A DNA stretch of 50,228 nt. Source: a virus. The DNA is taken from the IMG/VR virus record IMGVR_UViG_3300050821_004815, positions 1 to 50,228 of that record, one strand, 5' to 3'. Under the pieces are notes generated by a model. That model did no database searches. It saw nothing but the letters and a program-made list of their open reading frames with translations, and was not told the DNA's origin. The position numbers and the translations under genes are program-made. Positions 1,858-47,546 of the stretch are shown here, piece after piece; the first letter of the stretch is position 1, and each line of letters opens with the position of its first letter.

Positions 1858-2072
1858 CACGGCCAAGCGTAGCAAGGCTGGGCAAGGCGTGGCTGGGCCG
1901 GGCGGCGCGAGGCTAGGCGTGGCGTGGCGAAGCTAGGCGTGGCGTGGTCTGGCAATGCCCAGCCGGGCCGGGCGGCGCGAGGCAGCGCTCAGCATGGCAT
2001 GGCGCGGCGGGGCCAAGCAAGGCTTGGCGTCGCGAGGCGTGGTCGGGCGGCGCAGAGCGCAGCGAGGCAAGG
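1858..2072 (+). repeat. Pentanucleotide array A2
   Basis: About 43 units of the 5-bp RGCNN repeat with few phase slips, on the top strand. It contains a longer duplicated block (GGGCCGGGCGGCGCGAGGC recurs about 70 bp apart), which points to slippage or unequal exchange. It ends GGCAA GGATT and then TAATGAGTCAATTTA. The same junction, GGATTTAAT followed by GAGTCAATT, recurs after array A6 at 13559-13581. No gene is believable inside. Confidence 0.9.
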
Positions 2073-2077
2073 ATTTA

Positions 2078-2116
2078 ATGAGTCAATTTAACTCTGCTCG
2101 GCGAAGCAAAGCTTAG
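2078..2116 (+). pseudogene. Vestigial 12-codon ORF (MSQFNSARRSKA)
   Basis: ATG follows AAGGATTTA from array A2, so it has a ribosome-binding site, but it stops after 12 codons where array A3 begins. Its start (MSQFN) and 5' flank resemble the start of the helicase gene at 13571 (MSQLD, same GGATTTAAT...GAGTCAATT). It could be the remnant of a gene whose body was replaced by repeat. It could also simply be copied array flank. Confidence 0.35.
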
Positions 2117-2160
2117 CATGGCGTGGCACGGCCGAACACGGCGTTGCTAGGCAAGGCATG
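2098..2160 (+). repeat. Pentanucleotide array A3
   Basis: About 12 units of the same 5-bp repeat, ending GGCAA GGCAT GGATT directly before the ATG of the ribbon-helix-helix gene (2166). It is separated from A2 by only ~25 bp of AT-rich sequence. Confidence 0.85.
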
Positions 2161-2165
2161 GATTT

Positions 2166-2333
2166 ATGACAACCAAAACTTCACGAATCACCATTAATTT
2201 TAGCGACGCGGCGACGCAGTGGCTCAACCAAGAAGCTACGCGCCGCAATTTGAGCATCAGCGAATTGATCCGCCGCATCGTGGACGAACTGCGCGGTGAT
2301 TTTGTGCTCAAGGACAGCAAGAAAGCGTCTTGA
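2166..2333 (+). CDS. Ribbon-helix-helix (CopG/Arc-like) DNA-binding protein
   Basis: 55 aa: a beta strand (TSRITINFS), helix 1 (AATQWLNQEATRR), then NLSISELIRRIVDELR, the classic RHH layout of strand, helix, turn, helix. Such proteins dimerise and bind operator DNA through the strand. The ATG lies directly after the array end (ATGGATTTATG), so ribosome binding is weak or array-derived. It is AT-rich against its surroundings, suggesting acquisition. It likely regulates nearby early genes or itself; no target is visible. Confidence 0.75.
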   Translation: MTTKTSRITINFSDAATQWLNQEATRRNLSISELIRRIVDELRGDFVLKDSKKAS

Positions 2334-2363
2334 CGTCACTATAGATCGGATTTATGTAGATCA

Positions 2364-2436
2364 AGCACGGCGTGGCCGGGCGTAGCTCGGCACGGTTTGG
2401 CTAGGCGGTGCTGGGCGTGGCTCAGCGAGGCATGGG
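2364..2436 (+). repeat. Pentanucleotide array A4
   Basis: About 14 units (GGCGT GGCCG GGCGT AGCTC GGCAC and so on) between the RHH gene and the gene at 2457. It ends GGCAT GGGTC rather than GGATT. The downstream gene has its own site, GAAGGAAAG, so this array does not supply the ribosome-binding site. Confidence 0.85.
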
Positions 2437-2456
2437 TCTACAGAAGGAAAGATAAA

Positions 2457-3053
2457 GTGGAGATCAAAATAGCTGTTACTGGAATTACGCCACTAATCAT
2501 GAATAAATTTTCTGATGAAGCCGCATTAATCGCTTCTGGCGGCGTCCGAGGTAGTTCAGCTGCGGCTGGACGCAAAACGCCGCTCGAAATTTGTGAAAGT
2601 AAATTGTATGTAGGCCTCGACGGTAAAATAATGGTTCCACAGCCTAATTTATTACGCAGTATTGTAGACGGCGGTCGATTTCATAAGGCAGGAAAAAAAC
2701 AAATCACGACTAAAGAAGAGTCAATGATGTTTTCCTGCCTTGATATCGAAGGCATTAGTATTCCAGTCATCCATCAACAAGGCTGGAAGGTCGACACCCG
2801 TCCTGTGGTCAACCCTTCGACAAAAGGGCGTATCCTTTGTCATCGCCCGATGTTTGATGATTGGAGATTGGAATTCATCGTTCACCTCGACATCACTCTT
2901 CTCGGTCCAGGCATCTTCAGACAAATTGTCGATGACGCTGGCAATCGTATCGGGCTCGGTGATTTTCGACCGGCGCGAAAAGGTCCATACGGTCGTTATC
3001 GCGTCGACCATTGGGAGATCGTTGAGCAAACGCTTGATATAGCGGCGGAATAA
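2457..3053 (+). CDS. Phage 'TPLIMN' family protein (possible nucleic-acid-binding RAMP-like fold)
   Basis: 198 aa from GTG 2457, chosen for GAAGGAAAG 7 bases upstream; a longer frame would run into array A4. The N-terminus KIAVTGITPLIMNKF and the C-terminal GLGDFRPARKGPYGRY are marks of a widespread phage protein family that usually sits beside replication or recombination genes. From memory its fold has been likened to Cas7/RAMP ferredoxin-like proteins, but I cannot verify that here. The gene is AT-richer than the genome core and is flanked by arrays A4 and A5, so it looks acquired. Confidence 0.6.
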   Translation: MEIKIAVTGITPLIMNKFSDEAALIASGGVRGSSAAAGRKTPLEICESKLYVGLDGKIMVPQPNLLRSIVDGGRFHKAGKKQITTKEESMMFSCLDIEGISIPVIHQQGWKVDTRPVVNPSTKGRILCHRPMFDDWRLEFIVHLDITLLGPGIFRQIVDDAGNRIGLGDFRPARKGPYGRYRVDHWEIVEQTLDIAAE

Positions 3054-3060
3054 TTCAACT

Positions 3061-3368
3061 TAGCTGGGCAAAGCCTGGCGAAGCACGGCGACGCGAGGCC
3101 CGGCGGCGCGTGGCGGGGCAAGGTACGGCCCGGCATGGCGGCGCGAAGCCTCGGCGTGGCTCTGCCTGGCTCGGCAACGCATCGCGCGGCCGGGCAAGGC
3201 TTGGCGTGGCATAGCATGAGATGGCGAAGCACGGCGTGGCAACGCGCGGCATGGCGCAGCAAGGCGAGGGCGGGGCAGGGCGCGGCAGAGCGGAACTTGG
3301 CGATGCTGTGCCTGGCTTTGCTAGGCGTGGCCAGGCGTGGCCAGGCACGGCTGGGCAAGGCAAGGATT
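3061..3368 (+). repeat. Pentanucleotide array A5 (longest)
   Basis: About 60 units over ~305 bp with the GC dinucleotide every 5 bases and only a few phase slips. It includes GGCGTGGCCA repeated in tandem near 3325-3345. It ends GGCTG GGCAA GGCAA GGATT in phase. ORFs through it translate to low-complexity Ala/Pro/Arg or Gly/Ala/Arg 5-residue repeats and are not genes. A hairpin follows at 3378-3410. Confidence 0.92.
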
Positions 3369-3377
3369 TATATTAAA

Positions 3378-3424
3378 GGGCCCCCTGCAACGCCAAGCAG
3401 CAGGAGGCCCAATGGTCTGTTTTA
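3378..3424 (+). terminator. Hairpin after array A5, possible terminator
   Basis: Arms 3378-3388 and 3400-3410 pair at 10 of 11 positions (GGGCCCCCTGC with GCAGGAGGCCC) around an 11-base loop. A weak T-rich stretch (TGTTTTA) follows. It would end transcription from the 2166-3053 genes before the helicase gene. The remaining ~100 bases to 3528 contain a TTGACA at 3488 without a good -10. Confidence 0.5.
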
Positions 3425-3527
3425 GCCCAGGTGCGTAGGCCAACATTACATGTAGTGGAGTTATCCAACGTTGTCCACATGAGCGGTTTGACAGGACGCT
3501 GAATCGGGCAGAAATCTCGACCCACAG

Positions 3528-6041
3528 GTGCGCCAAATGCCGTGGGAATCAACCCGAATACAGCGATATTTAACCGTCGATTTCATCACCAAGAGGAGAT
3601 TAAATGCCCCGGCAGTCTGGCTAGGCCCGCAAAGCAGAGCGCCAAGCGCCGACGACGCGATCCGGCCGCCAGACGGGCTCAAGACCGACCCTAACGAATG
3701 GGCGAACGAGGATGACGAGCGCAATCTCGCCGTCCGCCTGGTCAACGGGCATATCGAGCTGCAGATCCAAGCGCCCGACGAAATCTGGCTCGGATTCTTA
3801 TTTAAGGCTTTCCGAGAGCTTCGAATCGACGCCCGCGCCGCCTTCGGAAGTCAATTCATCACCTCCATCATCCTGAGAATTGACGATCCTGAGACCATCG
3901 ACCGCTGGCGCGAGCTCTGGCCGCGCGGCCACACCGACAAGAACGGCCGCTGGGTCGAGACCAAATTCGCCTATTCGTCCATGCCGACCGCACGCTCGAA
4001 GGCGATCTGGCACGATTCGAAGCCCCTTCCCGGCTCGATCTTCGCCGAGAAGCTCGTCGTCTGGCGCCCGTGGGGCAAGCCGGCGGCCGAGACGGCCGAG
4101 ACCGGGCTGGACGATCTCGAAGTTAGAGAACTCGCCGCGACAAATATGAAATCTATTTGTCGCGCCATCGCTTTCGCCACTTTAGCCTATTGGATCAACG
4201 ACTATCTCGACGGGCTTGAAGAATGGGACGAGAGCCTAACGCGGGTGATGGGCGGCTGGGTCGCTCGACTGATCCGCGAAGGCCAGGACATCAACGCGCG
4301 CGGCAAGAGCCTCGAAGGGGTGTGCTGGTCGCCTATCGAGGATTCCCCGACCGCCGGTGAGCTGCTCAACTTTCTTGGCGCGATGGGCGCAAGCAAGGAT
4401 CTTGGCGTCGCCTTCCTGCACGCCGAAGCGGCGTTAGAGCGCAGCTCGACCGCGCCCGTCCCGGGTTGGGGCGCTATCGAGACGCTATTCGGCCCACAGG
4501 CCAAGGTCGGCATCCGGCGAGCCTTCCGCGCCGGTCTCGACATCGATGCGGTCGAGCGGATGAGCGAGCTCTACATTTACGACCGGACGATGGATAACTT
4601 TCTCGATTGCGATGAGCTGCTCAAAGGGCTGCATCACGAACACAAGGTTGACGAGCTGGAGCGGCGGCACAAAAACGAGATCATCTTCGTCGCCGGCAAG
4701 CCGCAGAACCCGTTTAAGCTCTACGCCGGCTCCTCGCTGCGCACCGATGTCCAGCACCGGGAGTTTCGCCCTGGCTACGAGCCTGGGTCCATCCTGCGCT
4801 ACTCCCCGGTCTACGGGCTGCTAAACGGCGAGGATAAGCATCCGGACGAATACCGGGTTTTGAATGTTTTTCCCGGCTTCGTGATCAAGCCGGTCGCCAC
4901 TATCGATGCGGCGATCATGGGTCGAGCGGTGACCATGCTCGACCGAATGCTCGGTCTCCTGACCCAGGACAAGGACGAGCAGATCAAGTGGCTTAAGCAG
5001 TTCGTCGCCTTTATCGCCCAGCGCCCCGAGATCAAGCCGCAAGTCTGCCCGATCATCGTCGGCGGGCAGGGGATCGGCAAAAGTCTGTTCGGTGACAATT
5101 TGATGAAGGCCTTGTTCGGGATCATGGCCGGCGGCGCCGCGGCCGACGCGCTAACCGAAAACAAGTTCGTCATCACTCCGTTTTTGAGCAAATTGATCAC
5201 CTTCATCGACGAGGTGCGGCTCGAATCGGTCGGGGCGATCAACACCATCAAGAAACTGGTGCGCGCCGACTACGTCTCGGGCCAGGTCAAGTTCGGGCAT
5301 CAGAGAGACTACTATGTCCCGACTCGGCTCCTGATCGCCTCCAACTCGCCCGACATCGGGCTTTCGCCGGTCGACGCCGCCGACCGGGCGTTTTTCTTCA
5401 TCATGTCGTGGACCGGCGAAAACAAGCGGATGACCGACCGCGAATTCCTCGATTGGTCAAACAGTCTCAAGCCGTTCTACACCGAATTCGTCCAGGCGTT
5501 GGAGGCGGTTGTATTCAAGCAGCACCTCATGCGCTATTTCATGGACTTCGAGGTCACCCGCGGCGAACTCGAAAACCTGCAATATTCCTCGCGCAACGAC
5601 GAGAACATCGTACGCTCGACCATGTCGAAGGCGCGCGAGGTGGCGCGAGCTATCGTCGCCGACGCACGGGTGCTCAACGACAAGGATCTGATGGCATGGT
5701 TCAATTCGACCAATCTGCGCGACGCCATCTTTCGCGTCGACGGCCGGCGCAGCAAGGTCGAGGCGGGCCAGGTGATGATGGAATTCGAGCGCGCCGGGGT
5801 GATCGAAGTGGTGCGCGGCGACATCCGCAAGTTTACCTGGGGTTACGGCAAGACGGTGCAGTTGATGAGCGAGGCGCACAGTTTGCCAATCACGCCGAAC
5901 TGGGACTATAAACCAGGCGACTTTGATGCGAACGACATCCGGTCGACCGAAGGGGCGCCACAGTGGCGGGGCTACAACAAAAACCAACGGCAAGACCGCG
6001 GACCCTACGATCCCGATGCTATGGGCCCGGACTCTTACTGA
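3528..6041 (+). CDS. Replicative helicase, P4/DUF5906-like SF3 type
   Basis: Up to 837 aa. The C-terminal half has a Walker A GGQGIGKS (about residues 512-519), a Walker B-like ITFIDEVR (~565), and LLIASNSPDIGLSPVDAADR as sensor 1 with an arginine-finger region. These are typical of phage/plasmid primase-helicases (D5/VirE/DUF5906). The N-terminal ~300 residues show no clear primase motif. It probably unwinds phage DNA at replication. The start is uncertain: GTG 3528 and ATG 3537 lack a good site, while a strong AGAGGAG precedes ATG 3604, which opens only a 6-codon ORF in another frame. A small upstream ORF or a sequence error is possible. Confidence 0.85.
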   Translation: MRQMPWESTRIQRYLTVDFITKRRLNAPAVWLGPQSRAPSADDAIRPPDGLKTDPNEWANEDDERNLAVRLVNGHIELQIQAPDEIWLGFLFKAFRELRIDARAAFGSQFITSIILRIDDPETIDRWRELWPRGHTDKNGRWVETKFAYSSMPTARSKAIWHDSKPLPGSIFAEKLVVWRPWGKPAAETAETGLDDLEVRELAATNMKSICRAIAFATLAYWINDYLDGLEEWDESLTRVMGGWVARLIREGQDINARGKSLEGVCWSPIEDSPTAGELLNFLGAMGASKDLGVAFLHAEAALERSSTAPVPGWGAIETLFGPQAKVGIRRAFRAGLDIDAVERMSELYIYDRTMDNFLDCDELLKGLHHEHKVDELERRHKNEIIFVAGKPQNPFKLYAGSSLRTDVQHREFRPGYEPGSILRYSPVYGLLNGEDKHPDEYRVLNVFPGFVIKPVATIDAAIMGRAVTMLDRMLGLLTQDKDEQIKWLKQFVAFIAQRPEIKPQVCPIIVGGQGIGKSLFGDNLMKALFGIMAGGAAADALTENKFVITPFLSKLITFIDEVRLESVGAINTIKKLVRADYVSGQVKFGHQRDYYVPTRLLIASNSPDIGLSPVDAADRAFFFIMSWTGENKRMTDREFLDWSNSLKPFYTEFVQALEAVVFKQHLMRYFMDFEVTRGELENLQYSSRNDENIVRSTMSKAREVARAIVADARVLNDKDLMAWFNSTNLRDAIFRVDGRRSKVEAGQVMMEFERAGVIEVVRGDIRKFTWGYGKTVQLMSEAHSLPITPNWDYKPGDFDANDIRSTEGAPQWRGYNKNQRQDRGPYDPDAMGPDSY

Positions 6042-6280
6042 TCCTCGCCACGCCCGCCGACGCCTGTCACATCTATCGCGTCTGGCATTATCCCAAACCG
6101 CAGAAGTGCTTCACCGCGCTGGCTCCGCTTCCAACGCGTTCATTCCGACATGAGACGTTCCGCGAACGAATCGATATTCCGCTGCCGGCGCTCGAATGGG
6201 CTGAATGTCCACCCGGCGAAGAACGATTGATGGCAATTGCAAAGTTGCGCGCTTTGGAGGATGTTCCGCCAAGCCGATAG
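5963..6280 (+). CDS. Putative secreted small protein with signal peptide
   Basis: 105 aa from GTG 5963, overlapping the 3' end of the helicase gene. A hydrophobic stretch GPGLLLILATPADA is followed by CHIYRVWHYPKPQKC, which looks like a Sec signal with AxA-type cleavage before a Cys pair. The C-terminal half has IPLPALEWAECPPGEERLMAI. Similar short exported proteins occur in Rhizobiales-like phages as far as I recall. The start is uncertain because no good ribosome site is seen. Function unknown. Confidence 0.5.
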   Translation: MAGLQQKPTARPRTLRSRCYGPGLLLILATPADACHIYRVWHYPKPQKCFTALAPLPTRSFRHETFRERIDIPLPALEWAECPPGEERLMAIAKLRALEDVPPSR

Positions 6281-6289
6281 GAGCCCGCC

Positions 6290-6613
6290 ATGGCGACCAT
6301 CAAGCGCACCGCTCACACCACCGTTCAAGCCGCACCCCGTACGCTGCCTCCATTGGAGCAGTCGCCCAGCCGCCTCGGAGATCGCGCCCCCGGGCAGCTC
6401 CCCGGCGTCGAGGACAACCAGTGGCCCGACGTTCCGGTCGATCCCGAAAGCGAAGCTGTCGAAAGCCAGGTCGTGACGGTCGGCCAGGAGCAATTGAAAC
6501 GCTCACGCGAGATGCAAGAGATAGGGATCGCCAACTGGGTCGCCGCGCGTGACGAGCGCGATCCTGCTGATCGGCCGCAACAGGTCGCTGGCGTCACACC
6601 CCTGGAACGCTGA
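6290..6613 (+). CDS. Hypothetical protein, Pro-rich N-terminus
   Basis: 107 aa with AGGAG 6 bases before the ATG. The N-terminal half is low complexity and Pro/Gln/Ala rich. Residues 65-107 are more ordered (VGQEQLKRSREMQEIGIANWVAAR). Its TGATG junction with the next gene indicates coupling. No known family recognised. Confidence 0.65.
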   Translation: MATIKRTAHTTVQAAPRTLPPLEQSPSRLGDRAPGQLPGVEDNQWPDVPVDPESEAVESQVVTVGQEQLKRSREMQEIGIANWVAARDERDPADRPQQVAGVTPLER

Positions 6614-7725
6614 TGGCTAATCCCTGGGACGCGCCGCCGGGTTTTACCGTTGACCCGACTACCGGACAGATCGTCCCGGTCCAACAGCCGTCGCAAGCCT
6701 TCCCTGGCGGCCCGCCGCCCGCTGCTCCGCAACCACAGGCCGCCGCTCCGCAGCCGACTCCAGCCCCGACACCAGGGGGTCCCGCGCCGGTTCCAGGCGT
6801 AACGCTGAACGGCGTTGGCCTCGACGCCAGCCCGAATGCCTTCACCGCGGCTTTTGGCGGCGCCCCACCGACTTCGAGCAACATGTTCCGCGGCGGCGGC
6901 TATGGCGGCGGCAAAAGTTCGATAACCGCCAATAAGCCGGTTAGCCCCGCGATTATGAAGCAAGTCAACAATCCGTTTGACTTCACCAAAGTACCAGGCT
7001 TGGGCTACGCCCCCGGCGGGGCGAACAGCAACGTCAATAGTCCGATTGCTCCTCCCTCGCCGCAAACGACAGCTCAAGCTCCACCTGGGGCGCCGTTGCC
7101 CCCACCTCGGCCGCCAGGGCTAGGCCAAGGCCCGCAAGCCGCCGCGCCGCCGGCAGCTCCCCAAGGTCAGCCTCCCTATGGCAATCCGTGGGATCCGCAG
7201 GGCGTCGGTTACGCCAGGTCGTGGGATCCGCAGGGCGTCGCCGCAGCCGCAGCTGCGCGGATGGGCGGGGGAGCCCCGCAGGGCGCGCTTGCCAATCCCG
7301 CGCTTGGTCAACAACCAAATTCGCCGTTCACCATGGTCTTACGACCTAATGCAGACGCCGCCGGGGGCGGTCGAGGTGGCGGCGGAACGCCTCTCGGCAC
7401 CGCGCTCGATCTTTCCGGCTATCGGCCGCCTCCTCCTGCCCCGCCGTCTTATAATCTCGGCTACAGCGGCGGGGCCCGCGGCGGCGGTGGCGGCGCTGCC
7501 GCTCCTCCGCCCCATTATCGAGCGCAAGCGCCAAATGATCCTGGCGGTCAATTTTGGAGCTTCTCTGGACCCGGAGTCGGGCTTCCGGCGGCCAAGGGAC
7601 CCGGGTTCTGGGCTGTCAAAGGACCAGGAGTCGGATTCCCGGCGGATAAGGGGCCTGGTTTCTGGGCTATCCATGGACCCGGAGTCGGGTTTCCATCGCC
7701 CGGCCCGGTCTTCGGGGGAAGGTAA
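6613..7725 (+). CDS. Pro/Gly/Ala-rich repeat protein
   Basis: 370 aa, mostly disordered PPAAPQPQAAAP-type sequence. Two NPWDPQGVGYA-like units occur near residue 190. A C-terminal set of about four repeats alternates GPGVGFPA and KGPGFWA (residues ~315-370). Such repeats resemble structural or surface proteins rather than enzymes. It is coupled to the upstream gene by TGATG and abuts the Ig-like gene downstream. Virion decoration is conceivable, though it lies outside the late operon. Confidence 0.6.
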   Translation: MANPWDAPPGFTVDPTTGQIVPVQQPSQAFPGGPPPAAPQPQAAAPQPTPAPTPGGPAPVPGVTLNGVGLDASPNAFTAAFGGAPPTSSNMFRGGGYGGGKSSITANKPVSPAIMKQVNNPFDFTKVPGLGYAPGGANSNVNSPIAPPSPQTTAQAPPGAPLPPPRPPGLGQGPQAAAPPAAPQGQPPYGNPWDPQGVGYARSWDPQGVAAAAAARMGGGAPQGALANPALGQQPNSPFTMVLRPNADAAGGGRGGGGTPLGTALDLSGYRPPPPAPPSYNLGYSGGARGGGGGAAAPPPHYRAQAPNDPGGQFWSFSGPGVGLPAAKGPGFWAVKGPGVGFPADKGPGFWAIHGPGVGFPSPGPVFGGR

Positions 7726-8286
7726 ATGAGCTACGACATCGGGACTTTCACCAACAAGATCCTGCTCGCGGTCAAAAGCGACAAATGGTACAAAGGCGAC
7801 CGAGCAGCCGAGCTCAACGCCATCGCCGCGGCGCTCAATACCGACACCACCCGCCGCGACGCCACGCTGCAGAAGCCGCCAACCGGCTTGAGACCCGGGC
7901 GCCGCACCAATACGAAATTCGCCAACAATGTCTTGCTGGTGATCAATCGCGGCAAGGCCGGTCATCTGACGCCGCTCGCCATGTCAAACGCGATCACCGC
8001 CGAGCTTTCGAAGGTCCTGCCGCCGGTTCAGACCTCGCCGCCGGTCATCTCGGGCACGGCGACAGTCGGCTCGACCCTGACCACCACTCACGGCAATTGG
8101 ACCTACGTCCCGACTTCGTACACGTATCAATGGCGGCGCGGCGCGGTGAATATTTCGGGCGCAACCGCAGCGACCCATGTCTTAGTAGCGGCCGATTCGG
8201 GCACGAACATCACCATGCAGCTGACCGCGCACAACGCCGCGGGCTCGACGCCGGCCAGCCTCTCTAACGCCATCGCGGTTGCATGA
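7726..8286 (+). CDS. Protein with C-terminal bacterial Ig-like domain
   Basis: 186 aa. Residues 1-100 form a helical domain of unknown type (TFTNKILLAVKSDKWYKGDRA). Residues ~105-186 match the Ig-like beta-sandwich pattern: PPVISGTATVGSTLTTTHG, YTYQWRRGAVNISGAT, VAADSGTNITMQLTA. Ig-like domains often decorate phage surfaces and bind glycans weakly. The start directly follows the previous stop. Confidence 0.65.
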   Translation: MSYDIGTFTNKILLAVKSDKWYKGDRAAELNAIAAALNTDTTRRDATLQKPPTGLRPGRRTNTKFANNVLLVINRGKAGHLTPLAMSNAITAELSKVLPPVQTSPPVISGTATVGSTLTTTHGNWTYVPTSYTYQWRRGAVNISGATAATHVLVAADSGTNITMQLTAHNAAGSTPASLSNAIAVA

Positions 8287-8478
8287 ATGCCGAAAATTCT
8301 GGACGAAGCGGTCAAGCAGCTAAAGGCGAAGGGCTGGGGAACATCGAGCGCGTTTGCTATCGGGACGAGCGCCTTGCAGAAGTCTGGCGCGCTCAAAAAA
8401 GGCTCAAACAAGCCTACGAAGCTTGGTGTGAAGCGCGGGAATATGACGCGCGCCCAGAGACACAGGACAGCGCCGTGA
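8287..8478 (+). CDS. Small conserved phage protein
   Basis: 63 aa. The pattern FAIGTSALQKSGALKKGSNK, then KLGVKRGNMTRAQRHR, is like a small basic protein common in phage genomes. The C-terminal RGxMTxAxRxR is characteristic. Its ATG abuts the previous TGA and its end overlaps the next start (GTGA). Function unknown, probably DNA- or virion-associated. Confidence 0.65.
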   Translation: MPKILDEAVKQLKAKGWGTSSAFAIGTSALQKSGALKKGSNKPTKLGVKRGNMTRAQRHRTAP

Positions 8479-8711
8479 GCTTCGGCCGGGTGAACAGTGA
8501 AAGCGACGAGCGCGTCGTCAACAACGACGTCAGGCATCAATATCGGGTGCTGACCGAGGCTGAAAAGTCCGCGATGGTTCGCCTCAAGGATTTGGGGCTT
8601 ATGTTCATGCGCCAGATTGACGATTGCGTCCCGGCAGGGCGCGAAGCTTCGCTTGCCAAGACGAAGGTGGAGGAGGCGATCATGTGGGCGGTGAAAGGCC
8701 TCACGGCGTGA
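8475..8711 (+). CDS. Acb2/Tad1-like cyclic-nucleotide sponge (anti-CBASS/anti-Thoeris candidate)
   Basis: 78 aa from GTG 8475, chosen because it overlaps the previous TGA (GTGA) and leaves a compact domain. The sequence has VRHQYRVLTEAEKSAMVRLKDLG, a mid-helix, then SLAKTKVEEAIMWAVKGLT. The YR-x-L-x-x-x-E ... K-x-K-x-E-E-A-x-M-W-A signature is that of the Acb2/Tad1 helical hairpin domain (T4 Vs.4 type). Known members bind cyclic di- and trinucleotides or gcADPR and so blunt CBASS and Thoeris defence. The family call is from memory of the motif; ligand and activity are inferred. Confidence 0.7.
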   Translation: MSFGRVNSESDERVVNNDVRHQYRVLTEAEKSAMVRLKDLGLMFMRQIDDCVPAGREASLAKTKVEEAIMWAVKGLTA

Positions 8712-8712
8712 G

Positions 8713-8913
8713 GTGCTGACCGCTACCGAGAAAGCGGCCCTCGTCCTCCTTGTCACCGAATTGATCGAAGCCAACCAGCCCAAGACCGTGCTTAGCGTCC
8801 TGCAGCGCATTGCCGAGCGGATGACGATGCGGGCGATTCGCCATGATCGGCGCGAGGAGGCGGACGGCTGGATGAGGCTGGTCGATGCGCTCGAAGCGGT
8901 CAGCCGATTCTGA
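8713..8913 (+). CDS. Small helical hypothetical protein
   Basis: 66 aa from GTG 8713, one base after the preceding stop. It is all helix by eye (TATEKAALVLLVTELIEA, then VLQRIAERMTMRAIRHDRREEA). It follows the Acb2-like gene closely and may be co-translated. Its last 14 bases overlap the convergent minus-strand gene. Function unknown. Confidence 0.55.
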   Translation: MLTATEKAALVLLVTELIEANQPKTVLSVLQRIAERMTMRAIRHDRREEADGWMRLVDALEAVSRF

Positions 8914-9292
8914 ACAGGTCGTGCCTCGCCGGCACGCAATTGCAGAACATGGAATTCGCCTGGGCGTACTGGGCGAGGAGACCTGGGTTTTGCTGGTTCA
9001 TCACGTTCTGCATCATGTTAATTTGCTGCGCCTGGGCGCTTTGCATTTGCGCTTGCGCCTGCAGGCGCATCGCTTCCGAGATATGGTGCTGCGGACGTTG
9101 CCGTTCCGCCAGCTGAAGAGCCCGCTCACGCCAATTTTCGGCCAAAGCGCGCCACCCGTCGCGTGTCCTGCGGACGTCCTCCAGCTCGCTTTCGAGATCA
9201 TCGATCTTCGCCTTGAGCTTGGCGACTTCGGGATCGCGCAGCTTGGCGACAACGGCGGTAGCCATCAAGGCGAGGGTGGTCAGGACTGACAT
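8900..9292 (-). CDS. Membrane-anchored coiled-coil protein, lone minus-strand gene
   Basis: 130 aa. The reverse-strand site AGGAGG with 5-base spacing before ATG decides strand and start. A short hydrophobic N-terminus (VLTTLALMATAVVA) is followed by a coiled coil (KLKAKIDDLESELEDVRR) and a Gln/Met/Ala-rich stretch (QAQAQMQSAQAQQINMM). An o-spanin-like or inner-membrane role is possible. It is the only minus gene within the plus-strand early block. Confidence 0.65.
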   Translation of the reverse strand: MSVLTTLALMATAVVAKLRDPEVAKLKAKIDDLESELEDVRRTRDGWRALAENWRERALQLAERQRPQHHISEAMRLQAQAQMQSAQAQQINMMQNVMNQQNPGLLAQYAQANSMFCNCVPARHDLFRIG

Positions 9293-9323
9293 CGGGGCCT
9301 CCTGTGGATAGCCTACAATGGGC

Positions 9324-9352
9324 TTGACAGTGCCGTCAATCGCACATATTTC
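9324..9352 (+). promoter_or_regulatory. Candidate sigma70 promoter
   Basis: TTGACA (9324-9329), 17-base spacer, then TATTTC. It lies about 45 bases before ATG 9397 and just past the start of the divergent gene at 9292. It is well placed to restart plus-strand transcription. Confidence 0.45.
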
Positions 9353-9396
9353 TGTCCTCGGTTGGAGACTTGAGCTCCATCTCGAAAGGAAAAATT

Positions 9397-9885
9397 ATGG
9401 AATTCGACACCCTGACCTCGGCGCAATATGTCGCCAGGAACCTCGACAACCTCCTCCAGCGCGCCCAGCGCGACACCGAAGAGGTCCTTAGCCGAAACAA
9501 CGTTCCCGAAACCGTCACTTACTTCGCCCGATTGAAGGCAACCGTTTCGGACCTGCAAAGCAAGCTCTCCGAGGTGCAAAAGCACATCGACGTCCTGTCG
9601 GGCGAGCTGATCCCAACGATGTTCACCAATCAGCAAGTGAAGAGCGTCAGAGTCGACGACGTCGGCTTGGTGACGGTCAACGACCGCTGGTCCTGCTCGA
9701 TGCTCAAGCCAGACCAGGCGCTGCAGTATCTGCGCGAGACCCAGAACGGCGGCATGATCAAGGAAACCGTGCATCCGATGACTATGGGCGCGCACGCCAA
9801 GGACGAGTACGACGCCGGCCGGCCGCTACCGGAGCAAATCTTCAAGGTCAGCCAGACGCCCTACGTCAGTATTCGAAAAAACTGA
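9397..9885 (+). CDS. Conserved phage protein with N-terminal coiled coil
   Basis: 162 aa. AAAGGA 7 bases upstream selects ATG 9397 over an earlier in-frame TTG. Residues 10-75 are helical/coiled coil (RLKATVSDLQSKLSEVQKHI). The C-terminal half is a beta-rich domain with VDDVGLVTVNDRWSCSML and a tail AHAKDEYDAGRPLPEQIF. This layout (coiled coil plus small alpha/beta domain) is common in phage replication regions. The SSB-like gene follows directly, suggesting a replication accessory role. Confidence 0.6.
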   Translation: MEFDTLTSAQYVARNLDNLLQRAQRDTEEVLSRNNVPETVTYFARLKATVSDLQSKLSEVQKHIDVLSGELIPTMFTNQQVKSVRVDDVGLVTVNDRWSCSMLKPDQALQYLRETQNGGMIKETVHPMTMGAHAKDEYDAGRPLPEQIFKVSQTPYVSIRKN

Positions 9886-9890
9886 CGTCG

Positions 9891-10811
9891 ATGAACTTCG
9901 AACGACCTCACTATCGCTATCGCGAAGGGATGTACCGCATCATGCCGACTGACCTCACCACTCCTGAAAGCACCAATGTGCCCGATTGGGCGCGTAAGGC
10001 CTCGACCGGGGCGAGCCTCGGCAACATCGACTCATCCGACCTCAAGCCGCCGCGGCTGAAGATGCTCGCCGGCATGTCGCCGGAAGTGATGAACGGCACG
10101 CCGGGGGCTTCCCCCGGCAATTTCTGGATCACCATCCTCGAGCAGAGCCTGGGTCATTCGGTCGTTGGCACGATGATCCTGGTGCGCAAATCCTATCAGG
10201 TCTGGGCGCCGAAAGTGCCGGGATCGGAGAGCCAGAAAGGCCCACTGGCGAGCTCGTCGAACGGGATTTCCTGGGACGTGCCGAACCAAGTTTTCGACAT
10301 TCGCTTCCCTAACAATCCGAACCTGATCAAATGGCGGATCGGCAAGCTGGTGACCGACCACAGCGCGACCAAGTGGGGCACTCAGAACCCCGACGACCGG
10401 AACTCGAAGCCGATTGCGACGCTGACCTACGACGTCCTGTGGGTCATCGACCTACCGAACGGCGTCAAGCAACTGTGCGTCTTCACCAACACGCGCACCG
10501 GCGTCACCCCGACTCAGAAGTTCATCTCGGCGGTCAAGGCGCGCGGCATCGACCAGTTCTATCAACGCTACCGGATCGTTCAGCGGAAGTTCACCGGACC
10601 GACCGGCGACCCTTATTTCTCCTACGACTACGAGCACATCGGCAACATCCAAGACCCGGCTGAAGGGGCGCGGATGCGGGGCTTATGGGAGCAATATTCG
10701 AAGTCGGGCTTCGTGGTCGACCTGGAGCAGGAAGCCGAGGAGATCCGCCAAGCCGCCGATCCCGACGCCATGGGGCCGACCACTCACGACGACTCGGAGA
10801 TTCCATTCTGA
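9891..10811 (+). CDS. Candidate single-stranded DNA-binding protein
   Basis: Up to 306 aa; ATG 9942 (MPTDLTTPEST) is an alternative start. The body has beta-rich segments (VVGTMILVRKSYQVWAP, IATLTYDVLWVIDL) and a conserved-looking YQRYRIVQRKFTGPTGDPYF. It ends in a disordered acidic tail finishing DDSEIPF, very like the DDDIPF tip by which bacterial SSB recruits partners. With helicases and nuclease nearby, an SSB role is the best inference. No OB-fold can be proved by eye. Confidence 0.55.
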   Translation: MNFERPHYRYREGMYRIMPTDLTTPESTNVPDWARKASTGASLGNIDSSDLKPPRLKMLAGMSPEVMNGTPGASPGNFWITILEQSLGHSVVGTMILVRKSYQVWAPKVPGSESQKGPLASSSNGISWDVPNQVFDIRFPNNPNLIKWRIGKLVTDHSATKWGTQNPDDRNSKPIATLTYDVLWVIDLPNGVKQLCVFTNTRTGVTPTQKFISAVKARGIDQFYQRYRIVQRKFTGPTGDPYFSYDYEHIGNIQDPAEGARMRGLWEQYSKSGFVVDLEQEAEEIRQAADPDAMGPTTHDDSEIPF

Positions 10812-10824
10812 GCAGGGGGATCAG

Positions 10825-11025
10825 GTGCAACCAAGCGATTACGTCAAAGCCGCGGCCATCGTAACCAACGTCTCGATCAAAATGAGCATCAGGTTTAGCT
10901 GGCCACATCTTGAGGAAAAAGATCGAGAAGTGATGCTCATCGACGTCATCGACCGGATGGCGCGTCTGCACGGCTGGTCGCTGCGCCGCGAGCCGGTCTT
11001 AGCCGAAGAGGATTCGGGCGAGTGA
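10825..11025 (+). CDS. Small hypothetical protein
   Basis: 66 aa from GTG 10825 with GGGGGAT upstream. It is largely helical (DYVKAAAIVTNVSIKMSI, REVMLIDVIDRMARLHGW) with an acidic end. It overlaps the next start by GTGA. No family recognised. Confidence 0.6.
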   Translation: MQPSDYVKAAAIVTNVSIKMSIRFSWPHLEEKDREVMLIDVIDRMARLHGWSLRREPVLAEEDSGE

Positions 11026-11276
11026 AGATCGTCAAGGTCGGGAACGGTCGCGAAACCGAAGTTCCGGAAAGTTGGGAAGAGGGCGAGGACATGGTCGAGC
11101 ATGCCCTCGGCGCCTTTTACGACGTGCGTGGCCAGAACTCTGCTCGCCTGTCAGTGTGCGCTCGTATCGCTTACGGCATGTTCGGCGAGCACTTCATGGC
11201 CGCCGATCCGACCCAGGCGCTCTTGTACCTTCTTCAAAGAATCTGTGAGCGCAAAGGGGCAGGGCTTGTTCCGTGA
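11022..11276 (+). CDS. Small hypothetical protein
   Basis: 84 aa from GTG 11022 (GTGA overlap with the previous gene). Acidic in the middle (PESWEEGEDMVEHALGAF), then helical (LSVCARIAYGMFGEHFMA, ALLYLLQRICERK). Coupled by GTGA to the next gene. Function unknown. Confidence 0.6.
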   Translation: MKIVKVGNGRETEVPESWEEGEDMVEHALGAFYDVRGQNSARLSVCARIAYGMFGEHFMAADPTQALLYLLQRICERKGAGLVP

Positions 11277-11689
11277 CGCCCGACAAGCTCGCCAAGATTC
11301 GCGCCCTCGCCGAGGACATGCGCGGCGATCCGGCGACCCGCATGATCGCGCTCAAGATCCTGGCGCGCTACGCGAAGGACGAAGAGCCGGTCTTTCACGA
11401 CGTCCCGCCCGCGCCGGAAAACCCGGCGGGAATGCACAACGCGCCCGAATACGAGCGCTACACCTTCATGTCGTTGCGCAACTGGGGGCGGTCGAAGAAC
11501 GGCAATTTTGTTCACACCACCTCCCACAAAGGGCGCGGCTATCGGGTCGTACTGTTCCCTTACAAGAAAACACCGACTTTTGGCTGGGTCCGAACCGATG
11601 TCGCAACCAATCAGGAAGTCTGGTCTGGCCGGTTCAGCGACTTAGAGGGAGCGCACCGAAACGCATGGGAGTCTCTGAAGTCGATCTGA
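11273..11689 (+). CDS. Hypothetical protein with N-terminal DUF2786-like helix
   Basis: 138 aa from GTG 11273 (GTGA overlap). The N-terminus DKLAKIRALAEDMRGDPATR, then a second helix, recalls short helical domains such as DUF2786. After a Pro-rich linker, residues 65-138 form a compact domain with HTTSHKGRGYRVVLFPYKK and WSGRFSDLEGAHRNAW. The two parts look like a linker-joined two-domain protein. No enzymatic motif. Confidence 0.6.
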   Translation: MTPDKLAKIRALAEDMRGDPATRMIALKILARYAKDEEPVFHDVPPAPENPAGMHNAPEYERYTFMSLRNWGRSKNGNFVHTTSHKGRGYRVVLFPYKKTPTFGWVRTDVATNQEVWSGRFSDLEGAHRNAWESLKSI

Positions 11690-11874
11690 ACTACGCCTGG
11701 CACCTCACCCTGTACGAGGTGCTTGAACTCGTCATTCAGCATTGCGGAGAGGCTGAAAATTCGTCTGACCCCCTGGTGATCGGGGTTCATCTAAAAATGG
11801 CTTCCCGGGCAATGCGATGCGCCCTGGAAATCTATGGTCTGCAACTAGAGGTGCCGAAAGAGGAACAGAAATGA
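11665..11874 (+). CDS. Small helical hypothetical protein
   Basis: 69 aa from ATG 11665, overlapping the previous gene by 25 bases in another frame. GAGGGA lies 15 bases upstream. Helical throughout (LTLYEVLELVIQHCGEAE, HLKMASRAMRCALEIYG). Its tail codes the ribosome site for the next gene and overlaps it by ATGA. Function unknown. Confidence 0.55.
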   Translation: MGVSEVDLNYAWHLTLYEVLELVIQHCGEAENSSDPLVIGVHLKMASRAMRCALEIYGLQLEVPKEEQK

Positions 11875-12248
11875 ATACCTACGAAATCACGATCAAAATT
11901 CCGACCAAGGACGCTTTTCTCGATTTCATTGAAAAGGTCGGACCCGCCGCCGGCCAGATGACCGTCACCGTCACCAAAGTGATCAAGGACGACGTCGTCG
12001 CCAGCATGGCTCAGCGGGCCAGGGCCCCCAAGAAGCAACTGCGCGGCTCGAAGGTCAACGACACCATTCTGGCGCGGCTCGGGCATGGTCAAGCGACGAT
12101 CAAGGAGCTCAAGGAGGCGCTCGAAAGCAACCGGCTATCGGCCGGCTCGCTGTCGACCGGAATCGCCGCCCTGACCAAGTCTCGCCAGATCGAGCGCACC
12201 GCGGAAGGCGTCTACGGCCTCGCCGATTGGCAAGCCGCGGCTCAGTGA
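11871..12248 (+). CDS. Winged-helix-like protein
   Basis: 125 aa from ATG 11871 (GAGGAACAG upstream, ATGA overlap). The N-terminal 50 residues are a short alpha/beta unit (EITIKIPTKDAFLDFIEK). Residues 65-125 read as a winged helix (NDTILARLGHGQATIKELK, LSTGIAALTKSRQIERT, EGVYGL). Probably DNA-binding in the replication block; it is joined to the nuclease gene by TGATG. Confidence 0.6.
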   Translation: MNTYEITIKIPTKDAFLDFIEKVGPAAGQMTVTVTKVIKDDVVASMAQRARAPKKQLRGSKVNDTILARLGHGQATIKELKEALESNRLSAGSLSTGIAALTKSRQIERTAEGVYGLADWQAAAQ

Positions 12249-12622
12249 TGGATGAAGCGGCGCGCAAGCGGCGTCTGGTCGCCGACATCAATCTGGTGTC
12301 GGGCGCCTACGCGCGCCGCCTCGAAGACAAATGGGCGGTCGGGGTGCTCGACCTCTTGTTCAAACTCCCCGGCATGCCGTGGATTTGGGCTGAAGGCAAA
12401 ATCGTCGCCGGTAACCAATTCGAGCCTTCCGAGCGTCAGTGGGTCGAGGGCAATCGGATCAAGGCGACTGGCACCCCGGTGCTGCTGTTCGGCTGGAAAA
12501 AGTCGAGCTTCTTCATCTCGCCGTGGGTCAAGAAGGCGCATGTCGACAATTGCTACCGCGGCGACGGCCCGAACCTATGGACGCTGCAAAACTACCTGAA
12601 GGAAACTCATGAATCTCGATGA
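12248..12622 (+). CDS. VRR-NUC-like PD-(D/E)xK nuclease
   Basis: 124 aa. The pattern VGVLDLLFKLPGMPWIWAEGK gives D35 ... E49-G-K51, and FEPSERQWVEGNR supplies the Q/E/W helix typical of VRR-NUC enzymes. These phage nucleases act on replication or recombination structures and are often encoded beside a SNF2-type helicase, as here at 13571. The start at ATG 12248 shares its A with the previous TGA. Family assignment is from motif; substrate inferred. Confidence 0.7.
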   Translation: MDEAARKRRLVADINLVSGAYARRLEDKWAVGVLDLLFKLPGMPWIWAEGKIVAGNQFEPSERQWVEGNRIKATGTPVLLFGWKKSSFFISPWVKKAHVDNCYRGDGPNLWTLQNYLKETHESR

Positions 12623-12959
12623 TGAATTGCGCACCAAGACCACTGCGAATGGCCCTTTCGAGGACGTCGCGCAGCTGGCGCAGGGGATCAAGTTCGCGCT
12701 GCGCCGCGGGCGCAACTGGGAGCCGATGTCGCCCGAATCGAAAGAGGCGCTGGAGCAGATCGCCTCGCGCCTCGCGATGATCCTGACCGGCGACCCGAAC
12801 GAAGCCAAGCACTGGAACCGGATCGCGATGTACGCGCGAATTCGCGACAAGGCGCTGGAGCAGACCAGTCTCGAAAGCGGGGTGACCCGGCTCGCCCGGT
12901 TGCGGGCCCGCGACATGCCACTGGCCCTGCCCGAGGATCCGACCGATGAAACTCGCTGA
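12609..12959 (+). CDS. Hypothetical protein (116 aa)
   Basis: AAGGAAACTC precedes ATG 12609, which overlaps the nuclease gene by 14 bases. It is helical with SKEALEQIASRLAMILTGDP and HWNRIAMYARIRDKALEQ. Spacing suggests an operon member with nuclease and helicase. The pattern 'E-x-L-x-x-I-A-x-x-L-x-x-I-L-x-G-D' is common in short phage proteins of unknown role. Confidence 0.65.
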   Translation: MNLDDELRTKTTANGPFEDVAQLAQGIKFALRRGRNWEPMSPESKEALEQIASRLAMILTGDPNEAKHWNRIAMYARIRDKALEQTSLESGVTRLARLRARDMPLALPEDPTDETR

Positions 12960-13143
12960 AATTTTGGCGCACTGCGAAACTGCCTTCACGGAACTGGTTC
13001 AGATACGCGGTCAGCTTGAGCGCGATTGCCATAACGATACTGCATTAGCGCTCGGATTGGCGGTCGGGGCTGTTGATCGAGCTAAAGGGTTGGTCGAGCG
13101 CGACCTCCGACTGCGAAAAGAGCAAGAAGAAGCTGATGCGTGA
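12946..13143 (+). CDS. Small helical hypothetical protein
   Basis: 65 aa from ATG 12946, overlapping the previous gene by 14 bases. It is one long helical region ending in charged heptads (DRAKGLVERDLRLRKEQEEA), likely a coiled coil. No known family. Confidence 0.55.
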   Translation: MKLAEILAHCETAFTELVQIRGQLERDCHNDTALALGLAVGAVDRAKGLVERDLRLRKEQEEADA

Positions 13144-13149
13144 TCGTTG

Positions 13150-13479
13150 ATGGTCAAGCGCGACGACACGACCTTTGACCTGTTCGAAGGCGAAGCTCGC
13201 CGTGACAAGGGAATGGGTCAAGTCAAGAAAAACAATGCTGAATTGCTGGTGAAAATATTGGTCTTGATTCGCGAGTTGCCCACAAGCTGGGTTGGCCAGA
13301 CAGAAGACATTCGCACCATGAGCGAACCTCGCTACGGCAAGCCGACGCACCATAACTTCTACGGCGCGGTGGCAAGAGAAGCGGTCAGATTGGAGATCCT
13401 CGCCTACACCGGACGTGTTGTGAAAATGAAGCGCCCTAAAGCCCACGCCCACAAAACGCGAGAATTGAAAAGAACATGA
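13150..13479 (+). CDS. Small phage protein, possible winged helix
   Basis: 109 aa from ATG 13150 (TTG 13147 is also possible). The N-terminus DLFEGEARRDKGMGQVKKN resembles the 'LF-x-x-E-x-x-R-D' opening of a phage replication-associated family. The middle HHNFYGAVAREAVRLEILAY could be a recognition helix, with a basic tail (KRPKAHAHKTR). It directly precedes array A6 and the helicase gene. Function unproven. Confidence 0.5.
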   Translation: MVKRDDTTFDLFEGEARRDKGMGQVKKNNAELLVKILVLIRELPTSWVGQTEDIRTMSEPRYGKPTHHNFYGAVAREAVRLEILAYTGRVVKMKRPKAHAHKTRELKRT

Positions 13480-13480
13480 G

Positions 13481-13560
13481 CTTGGCGAGGCCCGGCGTGG
13501 CCAAGCATGGCGCGGCGCGGTCTAGCGAGGCTTGGCGCTGCAATGCGCTGCAATGCGAGG
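13481..13560 (+). repeat. Pentanucleotide array A6
   Basis: Sixteen units in perfect 5-base phase, ending TGCAA TGCGA GGATT in phase. The last part has a 10-bp tandem (CTGCAATGCG twice). It is followed by TAATTACGTGAGTCAATTA, sharing the A2 3' junction. It separates two genes that are otherwise closely packed. Confidence 0.92.
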
Positions 13561-13570
13561 ATTTAATTAC

Positions 13571-14974
13571 GTGAGTCAATTAGACCCAGTTCAACTTAGC
13601 GCACTCGACTTCTCTCGCGATAAGCGCGGCGTCGGCTGGTTCATGGAGCAGGGGCTCGGCAAGACCCTGTGCGCGCTGGCTGAGTTCTCCTGGTACGAGA
13701 AGCTGGGCGAAGCCGACCGGATGGTCGTGGTGTGCCCGAACACCTTCAAAAAAGGGTGGTCGGACGAGATCGAAAAGCACGGCTTCTCGTTCGCCGAGCA
13801 CATCTTCCAATCAAGCAAAAAAGAGAAGGCCGGGATCTTCGTCAACGGCGTTCATAACCGTCCACCCGTTTTCATTCTCAATTACGAAGCGCTACGAATG
13901 CCGGCGGTGCTCAAGGCGATGACCACGTGGGCCTCGCGCGGCAAGACCTATTTCGCCATTGACGAGTCGATCCAGATCAAGAGCCATAGGAGTCAACAAA
14001 CCAAAGCGGCCCAGCGCCTCGCCGCGGTGTGCAAATGGGTGCGCTTGCTGAGCGGGCGCCCGCAAACCCAAGGTCCGCACGATTTGTGGGGGCAATTGCG
14101 CGCCATCGGGCTGTTCCCCGACACCAGCTTCCTCGCCTTCAGGAATACCTTCTGTGAAATGGGCGGTTACATGATGAAGGAGGTGGTCGGTGTGCGCCAA
14201 CCCGAAATGCTCGCTAGGATCATGGAACCGGTGGTCTTCCAGGCTAAAAAGAAAGACTGGCTACCGGATCTGCCGCGCAAGGACGCGACCATTCGCGATT
14301 ATGCGATGTCGACCGCGCAACTCGCTCAATACAACCAGATGGAGCAGCAGTTCCTGCTCTATCTAGAACACAACGTCGTCACGGTGGACGTCGCTATAGC
14401 TAAATACGAGAAGCTCGCCCAGATCCAGACGGGCTTCATATACGACGAGGCGGGTGATGTTCATGAGCTCGTAAAGCCTCTCGAAAACCCCCGGCTCAAG
14501 CTCTTGCATCAGCTTCTGGACGAGGAGGTCGAGGGCAAGGTCTGCGTCGTCTACCGTCATCGTCCCATCCTTAACATGCTGGTCAAAGCTTTGGCCGAAT
14601 ACGACCCGGCCTGGATCATGGGGCGGATGAAGCCCGAGGACGTCGAGGAGCAGAAGCGGCGATTTAACGACGACCCAAGCTGCCGGATCATCCTGTTGCA
14701 GGCCGAAGCCTCGAAATACGGGCATACTTTGTTGGCTGGCCCAGCGGAAGAAGACAGGTGCCGCACCATGATCTTCTTCGAGAATTCTTATAGCGCCGAC
14801 ACGCGAGACCAGATCGAGGATCGTATCCACCGCCGCGGCCAGACCGGCGAATACGTCTCGTATATCGACCTCTCGGGCTCGGACCTCGACCGCCGGATCG
14901 TCAAAGCCCTGCAACGAAAGGATGCGCTATATCGTTCTGTCTTTAAAAACCTTAGAGTCGCCGAACCAGCTTGA
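13571..14974 (+). CDS. SNF2-family helicase/ATPase
   Basis: 467 aa from GTG 13571, with AGGA at the array end upstream; the longer frame starting in the array is rejected. Motif I is MEQGLGKT (residues ~25-32), motif II AIDESIQIK (D-E-S in place of DEAH), motif III LLSGRPQTQ. Motif VI is QIEDRIHRRGQTG near the C-terminus. This is a compact phage SWI2/SNF2 protein that translocates on dsDNA, probably in replication or recombination with the VRR-NUC-like nuclease. The first ~12 codons are AT-rich next to the array. Confidence 0.88.
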   Translation: MSQLDPVQLSALDFSRDKRGVGWFMEQGLGKTLCALAEFSWYEKLGEADRMVVVCPNTFKKGWSDEIEKHGFSFAEHIFQSSKKEKAGIFVNGVHNRPPVFILNYEALRMPAVLKAMTTWASRGKTYFAIDESIQIKSHRSQQTKAAQRLAAVCKWVRLLSGRPQTQGPHDLWGQLRAIGLFPDTSFLAFRNTFCEMGGYMMKEVVGVRQPEMLARIMEPVVFQAKKKDWLPDLPRKDATIRDYAMSTAQLAQYNQMEQQFLLYLEHNVVTVDVAIAKYEKLAQIQTGFIYDEAGDVHELVKPLENPRLKLLHQLLDEEVEGKVCVVYRHRPILNMLVKALAEYDPAWIMGRMKPEDVEEQKRRFNDDPSCRIILLQAEASKYGHTLLAGPAEEDRCRTMIFFENSYSADTRDQIEDRIHRRGQTGEYVSYIDLSGSDLDRRIVKALQRKDALYRSVFKNLRVAEPA

Positions 14975-18890: not shown

Positions 18891-19007
18891 CGCGCGGCAC
18901 GGCTGTGCTTGGCGTCGCGGAGCTTTGCCCGGCTAGGCATGGCAGGGCTTTGCAGAGCAATCCTCGGCTGGGCCCGGCATCGCAAGACATAGCGCGGCAA
19001 GGCAAGG
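18891..19007 (+). repeat. Pentanucleotide array A7
   Basis: About 23 units, somewhat more degenerate, with the G-rich strand on top although both flanking genes read on the minus strand. It ends GGCAA GGCAA GGATG, abutting a hairpin at 19010-19030. Here the GGAT end faces the 3' end of a gene, so it cannot be a ribosome-binding site. Confidence 0.85.
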
Positions 19008-19009
19008 AT

Positions 19010-19030
19010 GGGGGTCACGTTGTGGCCCCC
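19010..19030 (-). terminator. Stop-codon-spanning hairpin at the end of the 19015-19686 gene
   Basis: GGGGGTCAC and GTGGCCCCC pair over 9 bp (one G-U) with a 3-base loop. The minus-strand TGA stop lies in the stem. No T-run. It directly joins array A7. Confidence 0.45.
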
Positions 19031-21951: not shown

Positions 21952-21974
21952 GTGTTAAACTCCTCTTACAGCGC

Positions 21975-22054
21975 GAGGCTCAGCACGGCACGGCACGGCA
22001 CGGCCAAGCCAGGCGGCGCTCGGCTCGGCGAAGCTCGGCGATGCAAGGCATGGC
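21975..22054 (+). repeat. Pentanucleotide array A8
   Basis: About 16 units, including GGCAC four times in a row, top-strand G-rich between two minus-strand genes. It ends GGCAT GGCAA GGG and merges into a hairpin at 22055-22079. Confidence 0.88.
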
Positions 22055-22079
22055 AAGGGAACCATCCTAGAGTTCCTTT
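22055..22079 (-). terminator. Hairpin at the 3' end of the 22067-22426 gene
   Basis: AAGGGAAC and GTTCCTTT pair over 8 bp (one G-U) with a 9-base loop. The minus-strand TAG stop lies in the loop and the outer arm touches array A8. Confidence 0.4.
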
Positions 22080-30258: not shown

Positions 30259-30278
30259 GGTATAAGCCCCCTACCATG

Positions 30279-30352: not shown

Positions 30353-30355
30353 AGA

Positions 30356-46767: not shown

Positions 46768-46778
46768 GGGACACAAAC

Positions 46779-47543: not shown

Positions 47544-47546
47544 CTC

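Follow-up and report, generated by a model that had tools for sequence, protein, structure and literature searches.

Tandem pentamer arrays beside their apparent target genes in an uncultivated phage: probable guide RNAs of a VIPR system accompanied by apparently evasive alleles

The window analysed here is the whole of the uncultivated virus record IMGVR_UViG_3300050821_004815, 50,228 bases, which carries portal, scaffold, terminase and tail genes; a megablast search of positions 1–25000 against phages gave no match. Along it lie nine arrays of tandem RGCNN pentamers, A1 to A9, and a gene for a homologue of Vipr. VIPR is an RNA-guided DNA-recognition system described in a 2026 preprint (PMC13142463). 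It comprises phage RAMP proteins (Vipr) and vrRNAs of GGY/NN repeats (9–16) with an invariable 3′ tail; DNA is recognized with a one-nucleotide (1-nt) skip, and the targets lie in competing mobile elements (PMC13142463). We propose that the arrays very probably encode the guide RNAs (vrRNAs) of a phage-borne VIPR system, and that the guides appear to be paired with evasive alleles of the genes they adjoin and would target.

The layout is as follows, all features being on the plus strand unless stated otherwise. A1 (569–653, 17 units), a vrRNA-like array, lies upstream of gene X (658–900, TTG start). A2 (1856–2070, 43 units) is followed by A3 (2095–2159, 13 units), which ends in GGATTTATG before a gene for a ribbon-helix-helix (RHH)-like protein of 55 residues (2166–2333; Pfam RHH_1 E = 0.0022, below the cut-off), a possible accessory (vap) gene. 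The vipr gene (2457–3053, 198 residues, GTG start) is flanked by A4 (2364–2433, 14 units), immediately upstream, and A5 (3062–3363), which was read from the letters as a block in three phases (a, b and c). A6 (13479–13558, 16 units) lies upstream of an SNF2-family helicase gene (13571–14974; Pfam SNF2-rel_dom 5e-20). The vrRNA-like arrays A7 (18896–19005, 22 units, antisense to neighbouring genes), A8 (21972–22056, 17 units) and A9 (30278–30352, 15 units) complete the set; A6 and A9 were among the arrays in the near-flank test given below. A1, A3, A4, A6, A8 and A9 have 13–17 RGCNN units, and A2, A5 and A7 are longer.

The Vipr homologue matches the solved SUSP1 Vipr (PDB 36pp) by phmmer (E = 2.5e-5) and by profile (E = 1.3e-8 and 6.9e-9). 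A model built from 21 sequences has a pLDDT of 78.7 (41.5 when built from 7), and its top rows in Foldseek and VIA-align are Csm3/Cas7-type RAMPs with Z about 10.8. The protein also matches phrog_4652, a family of unknown function. Relatives are encoded in 23 viral loci (loci outside the window carry L numbers). In tblastn searches, phages yielded only Gordonia phage Trine gp41 and plasmids no match; a search of genome contigs found no relative. Trine gp41 (L137:5001-5576), annotated as hypothetical and 27.5% identical, is the only named phage protein related to the window's Vipr. The SNF2 gene was considered as a vap gene and rejected: of the loci searched, 31 have SNF2, and a vipr match accompanies it only in the window and L142.

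The order of the NN dinucleotides carries information, as shuffling and permutation both indicate. Window guides were compared with 97 related loci, none of them retrieved with guide patterns. Across the scans, same-contig or near-identical loci (L128, L129, L130, L132, L133, L135, L137 and L194) were left out, in subsets that varied. At a score of at least 18, skips of 0, 1, 2 and 3 nt gave 0, 28, 0 and 0 matches, and three shuffled guide sets gave 0, 0 and 0. For 53 guides of other phages, run with skips of 0–2 only, the counts at a score of at least 18.5 were 0, 17 and 0. When 11 guide segments were scanned against the window itself, the four top 1-nt-skip scores were those of A1 (16.5), A6 (15.5), A7 (14.5) and A8 (14.0), the highest shuffled maximum in 40 runs being 14.5. 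The sites of A6, A7 and A8 adjoin their own arrays; that of A1 is on a second copy of gene X, at 47234, the neighbouring copy scoring 12.5. In the near-flank test, NN order was permuted and flanks of 150 nt were scanned with skips of 0–3. Positives at p ≤ 0.01 with a 1-nt skip numbered 5 among the 12 window segments, 7 among the 55 from the vipr clade, none among the 3 from other relatives and 7 among the 328 generic arrays; the other skips gave none in the first three groups and 2–3 among the generic arrays. Individual values were p = 0.005 for A1 (200 shuffles) and p = 0.015 for A3.

L177 has an array at the A7 site. Ten consecutive NN in it are identical to those of A7 (20/20 letters), with a different first scaffold letter in 8 of the 10 units. 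The simple pentamer periodicity, and expanded arrays such as the 69 units of L134, would suit functionless, slippage-prone, low-complexity DNA. Random slippage is nevertheless rejected by the conservation of NN while the scaffold letter changes and by the 28 strong matches against none for shuffled guides; with a vipr gene in the same genome besides, we consider this explanation vanishingly improbable. The initial annotation had read the 3′ junction of the arrays as a defined terminus, as in a mobile or copied element, rather than the product of slippage. A defined 3′ terminus that is no product of slippage is upheld, given the informative NN order and the NN kept in the orthologous array; a mobile-element terminus is not.

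Six of the nine arrays (A1, A4, A6, A7, A8 and A9) match the adjoining gene, mostly near its start, and relatives at these loci usually have no array. A4 matches, in the window's own vipr, 16/20 paired positions at 2777–2806 (minus strand), encoding HQQGWKV, with a G that is P or A in most relatives. The own A6 site is at 13580–13615 (20/24) in the SNF2 gene, and that of A7 is at 18825–18872 (24/32), antisense to the start of gene 17495–18874. A8 matches early codons of gene 20572–21951 at 21910–21936 (minus strand, 16/18; the mismatched unit is Ser AGT versus TCN), and A9 matches codons 2–14 of gene 28756–30258 at 30217–30255 (minus strand, 18/26).

For four of these guides, most relatives are matched better than the window's own allele. 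The alleles compared were placed by protein homology (78 of the related loci were retrieved by homology to gene 20572–21951, guides not being used), and some rows share a contig (L174/L178; L169/L180). For A6, 18 of 26 rows are better than self, 4 equal and 4 worse; counted by contig, the 25 relatives divide into 17, 4 and 4. For A9, the 15 rows divide into 9, 2 and 4, and the 14 relatives by contig into 8, 2 and 4. A7 matches 10 of 11 rows better; by contig, 8 of 9 relatives are better, L171 among the 8 being known only from the A7-pattern scan, and 1 is worse. That sole relative is L177 (23/32 versus 24/32 in the window), which carries the orthologous A7 guide. Among the vipr homologues compared with A4, 15 of 20 are matched better than the window's own, 1 equally and 4 worse; other phages' vipr genes reach 18/20 in 11 cases.

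Some other phages display a similar arrangement. The guide of L149 matches its own site at 23/30 and that of L147 at 30/30, the proteins being about 90% identical over the gene. Between these two loci, paired positions in the target have changed in 7 of 30 cases, compared with 47 of 940 outside it (Fisher 8e-4), with three synonymous Leu CTN/TTR swaps. In L146 and L150, arrays occupy one locus and each guide matches the other's allele. A set of 20 own-versus-relative rows was hand-chosen from the best matches and is biased towards "relative better"; 3 have no own homologue and 1 has it off the contig, self is lower in the remaining 16 of 16, and 14 of those 16 own sites are within 360 nt of the array. 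Units 12–18 of A5b match the Pam3 gp33-like gene of L188 and L172 (14/14), the window's own homologue being different; a guide of L138 matches there too (23/24).

An alternative account would be that the guides autoregulate the phage's own adjoining genes, the matches to relatives being a by-product of homology. The targets do adjoin the arrays, and A8 fits the own allele best. However, most relatives are matched better than self by A4, A6, A7 and A9, and this holds among rows with at least 70% amino acid identity to self: 16 of 17 are better for A6 (1 equal), 8 of 8 for A9 and 9 of 10 for A7, where the remaining row is the second phage that carries the guide. The L149 guide is likewise perfect on L147 and imperfect at home. 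We therefore regard autoregulation as distinctly unlikely.

Turning to the 3′ junction, an in-phase GGATTT comes directly after the final pentamer of A1 (at 654), A2 (2071), A3 (2160), A5 (3364) and A6 (13559), as the initial annotation had described. GGATTT occurs 19 times on the plus strand and 11 times on the minus strand of the window; at this frequency, chance does not account for five in-phase copies placed right where arrays end. A7 ends in GGATGGGGG at 19006 and A4 in GGGTC; A8 and A9, whose ends the initial annotation had passed over, close with GGGAACC and AGAGAGG. The flank GAGTCAATT said to be common to A2 and A6 is indeed found at both, at 2080–2088 after GGATTTAAT and at 13573–13581 after GGATTTAATTACGT; the full flanks are GGATTTAATGAGTCAATT (2071–2088), tail-like and leading to a 12-codon stub, and GGATTTAATTACGTGAGTCAATT (13559–13581), which reads as tail plus the start codons of the SNF2 gene. 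In A6, GAGTCAATT is coding, GTG AGT CAA TTA giving V-S-Q-L at the SNF2 gene start; SNF2 relatives mostly begin ATG-AGY-nnn-CTN. The A2 copy is either a copy of the SNF2 leader or a shared tail.

In a de-duplicated sample of 226 terminal arrays, the unit after the array begins with GG in 116 and with GGAT in 20; GGATT and GGTTT starts number 14 each. AA is the last NN of 79 arrays and the penultimate NN of 64. The bias of the last units to AA, with the GG starts, gives a general boundary, "..GGCRA GGCAA GG". GGATTTA(A)TGAGTCAAT, put forward earlier as a conserved boundary, is not conserved as such in this sample, and a universal GGATTTAATGAGTCAAT boundary was rejected on the same arrays. GGATTT(A) is a clade-level end, typical of this clade and not universal: it recurs in L140, L142 and L143, and among the generic loci listed a GGATTTT start was found only in L033, with L063 and L069. 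The array at L140:10802-10876 has a guide matching, at 21/26, a gene that starts 15 nt downstream, and its end, GGATTTAATCACGTGAG, matches the A6 end ahead of another gene.

The nine first-found vipr loci contain several successive arrays parted by AT-rich tails, e.g., GGATATTTTATTGATT, which have no clear gene start, and the blocks often close with GC-rich hairpins; AT-rich inter-array tails similar to that of A2 are found in L131, L138, L139 and L140. Strong hairpins beyond shuffles close A7 (GGATGGGGGTCACGTTGTGGCCCCC, 19006–19030, z −3.7) and A9 (GAGGAGCTTTGG-TCAA-CCAAAGCTCCTC, 30353–30383, z −5.3). A5 ends in GGATTTATATTAAA and a GC-rich stem-loop (3364–3411), whose z of −0.79 is within the shuffle range. 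The type of tail differs between gene-linked and stand-alone arrays.

The fixed end might instead be a ribosome-binding leader (an AAGGA or GAGGA Shine-Dalgarno sequence, a short AT-rich spacer and a start codon) kept for the downstream gene. A1, A3 and A6 run straight into the TTG, ATG or GTG of open frames, and an ATG open reading frame lies within 25 nt of 7 of 20 GGAT ends versus 31 of 206 other ends (p 0.053). This association is weak, however, and the RGC phase and the NN code are left unexplained; A5 and the inter-array tails of L131, L138 and L139 end alike without a clear gene start, and A2 leads only to its stub. A leader is accordingly unlikely, though it keeps an appreciable share of the probability. 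Given the inter-array tails without a gene start, the biased ends, the hairpins and the weak ATG association, the fixed junction is most likely the tail of a putative guide RNA, which near genes would overlap the translation start.

Some arrays are inserted modules, since the genes that flank A8 in the window abut or overlap in array-less relatives and those that flank A9 overlap; the window has the array between them. At 30343–30385, the A9 hairpin consists of the last bases of the neighbouring gene (GAGGAGCTTTGG) and an inverted copy that is absent in array-less relatives, as if the terminator had formed at insertion. A1 too has an empty site. A second copy of its region (46582–47142), 95.6% identical to 1–561, has no array and is followed by the second gene X copy (47141–47383). 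The two copies of gene X agree at 58/93 positions in 658–750, 29/42 in the target and 237/249 beyond the target, a pattern that fits an exchange of array and gene start as one block, or alternatively two strains joined by assembly. The window's ends as a whole, 1–1731 and 46582–48913, are diverged copies of one region, without a difference over the first 98 bases, and point to an assembly that joined two strains or to a genuine duplication; the right-hand copy has neither array nor vipr, and a ParB-like gene is next to it (49123–50151).

Insertion raises the question of whether the arrays move, or are copied, as elements that have a conserved terminus. A8 and A9 do occupy gaps absent from array-less relatives, the A2 and A6 flanks have a sequence in common, and GGATTTAATYACGTGAG is common to A6 and L140 before different genes. 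Against this, no transposase was found among the window proteins scanned, a subset of the open frames, and the ends differ (AT-rich, hairpin or gene start). The junctions of A7, A8 and A9 have no terminus common to copies, of the kind found in transposable elements, and the A6 GAGTCAATT is SNF2 coding sequence. Unlike copies of one element, the guides differ mutually and match the local gene. A mobile element with its own terminus is thus very unlikely. The initial annotation's suggestion of copying survives only for the A2/A6 flank, with a copied leader as one of two options; a transposon-like terminus is not supported.

If the arrays encode VIPR guides, each RNA would be a run of RGC-NN pentamers with the near-constant end given above and a 3′ tail; gene-linked copies would have an AT-rich tail (GGATTT...) and stand-alone ones a hairpin or terminator. 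Vipr would assemble on the RGC scaffold. Of each base triplet in the double-stranded DNA, two bases would then pair with an NN and the other, frequently the wobble position of a codon, would be skipped. The most likely function would be to silence the adjoining gene's versions in co-infecting related phages, the own diverged allele escaping. Transcription, a function of the RNA tail, binding, silencing and selection for self-mismatch are inferences. It is tempting to go further, with a chance we put at somewhat less than even, and propose that each guide is inherited together with its escape allele as a single cassette. The linked allele would evade the guide, sometimes through synonymous Leu or Ser codon-family swaps, which alter guide-paired bases and leave the protein unchanged. 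A co-infecting relative that acquired the resistant allele by recombination could survive, and would receive the guide along with it. This would be a nuclease-free, homing-like drive and an RNA-guided form of marker exclusion between phages.

Several results weigh against the proposal that the arrays encode such guides, or narrow its reach. A8 matches the own allele best among 47 rows, relatives being better in 0 of 46. A1 is imperfect on both copies of gene X, at 751–792 (21/28) and 47234–47275 (23/28), and target-pattern searches for A1 and A8 found no homologous gene. Guide scans of related loci located no target for A2, A3, A5a and A5c, and that of A5b rests on the 14/14 match. The 7 of 328 generic arrays positive in the near-flank test compare with about 3 expected, so adjacency of array and target is not shown outside this clade. 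Only L149/L147 and the gene X block show clear target-specific recoding beyond gene-wide divergence. Most of the remaining pair rows gave no significant result, several rows being in a frame that does not translate the target, and reliance is placed only on L149 and gene X. An Rfam search gave no hit, a promoter scan near A7–A9 found none beyond chance, and the AT-rich tails of A2 and A6 have no stable fold beyond shuffles. Finally, the possible RHH accessory gene has no consistent link with vipr: a relative lies near vipr arrays in only three other retrieved loci, L132, L133 and L139 (L139:4596-4733), on the opposite strand.

The window resembles VIPR in its RAMP-fold Vipr homologue, its GGY/NN-type tandem repeats with a probable 3′ tail, its code read with a 1-nt skip that frequently falls on the wobble position, and its apparent targets in competing phages, which include other vipr genes. 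It differs in that the first letter of the RGC scaffold varies, the arrays are scattered singly along the genome and mostly lie beside the target gene, the own allele is mismatched for several guides, and there is no consistent vap gene. A rule of array-target adjacency is not described in the main text of the VIPR preprint (PMC13142463), and the literature matches listed include no further vrRNA or VIPR paper. The placing of guides beside the target gene, with a mismatched own allele, appears to be new here. The fold of the Vipr model is like that of the type III/VII CRISPR RAMP proteins Csm3 and Cas7; however, the locus has RGCNN pentamers in place of repeats and spacers, and the predicted pairing is non-contiguous. 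In phage homing endonucleases and marker exclusion, an element is linked to a version of its target gene that resists it, and acts on a rival's version. The likeness to the window is one of analogy only, the present system being putatively RNA-guided and no nuclease having been found. Start-associated sequences of cluster K mycobacteriophages are also repeated elements upstream of gene starts; we know of no RGCNN code or guide function for them.

These results confirm the VIPR 1-nt-skip code independently, from sequence only and in another group of phages. They also suggest how a phage that targets its relatives could spare itself, guides being placed next to target versions that have diverged. 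Targets would then be predictable from gene neighbourhood alone, and self/non-self discrimination between phages would be directly testable. A pattern scan of a public viral collection found at least 120 stretches with six GGCNN units, which indicates that such arrays are widespread; L019:6311-7010, in another viral contig, is a very long array of about 140 units. Within the window, GGATTTATG recurs at 2348–2356, just upstream of A4, where it is followed immediately by a stop (TAG) and is perhaps the relic of an older array end.

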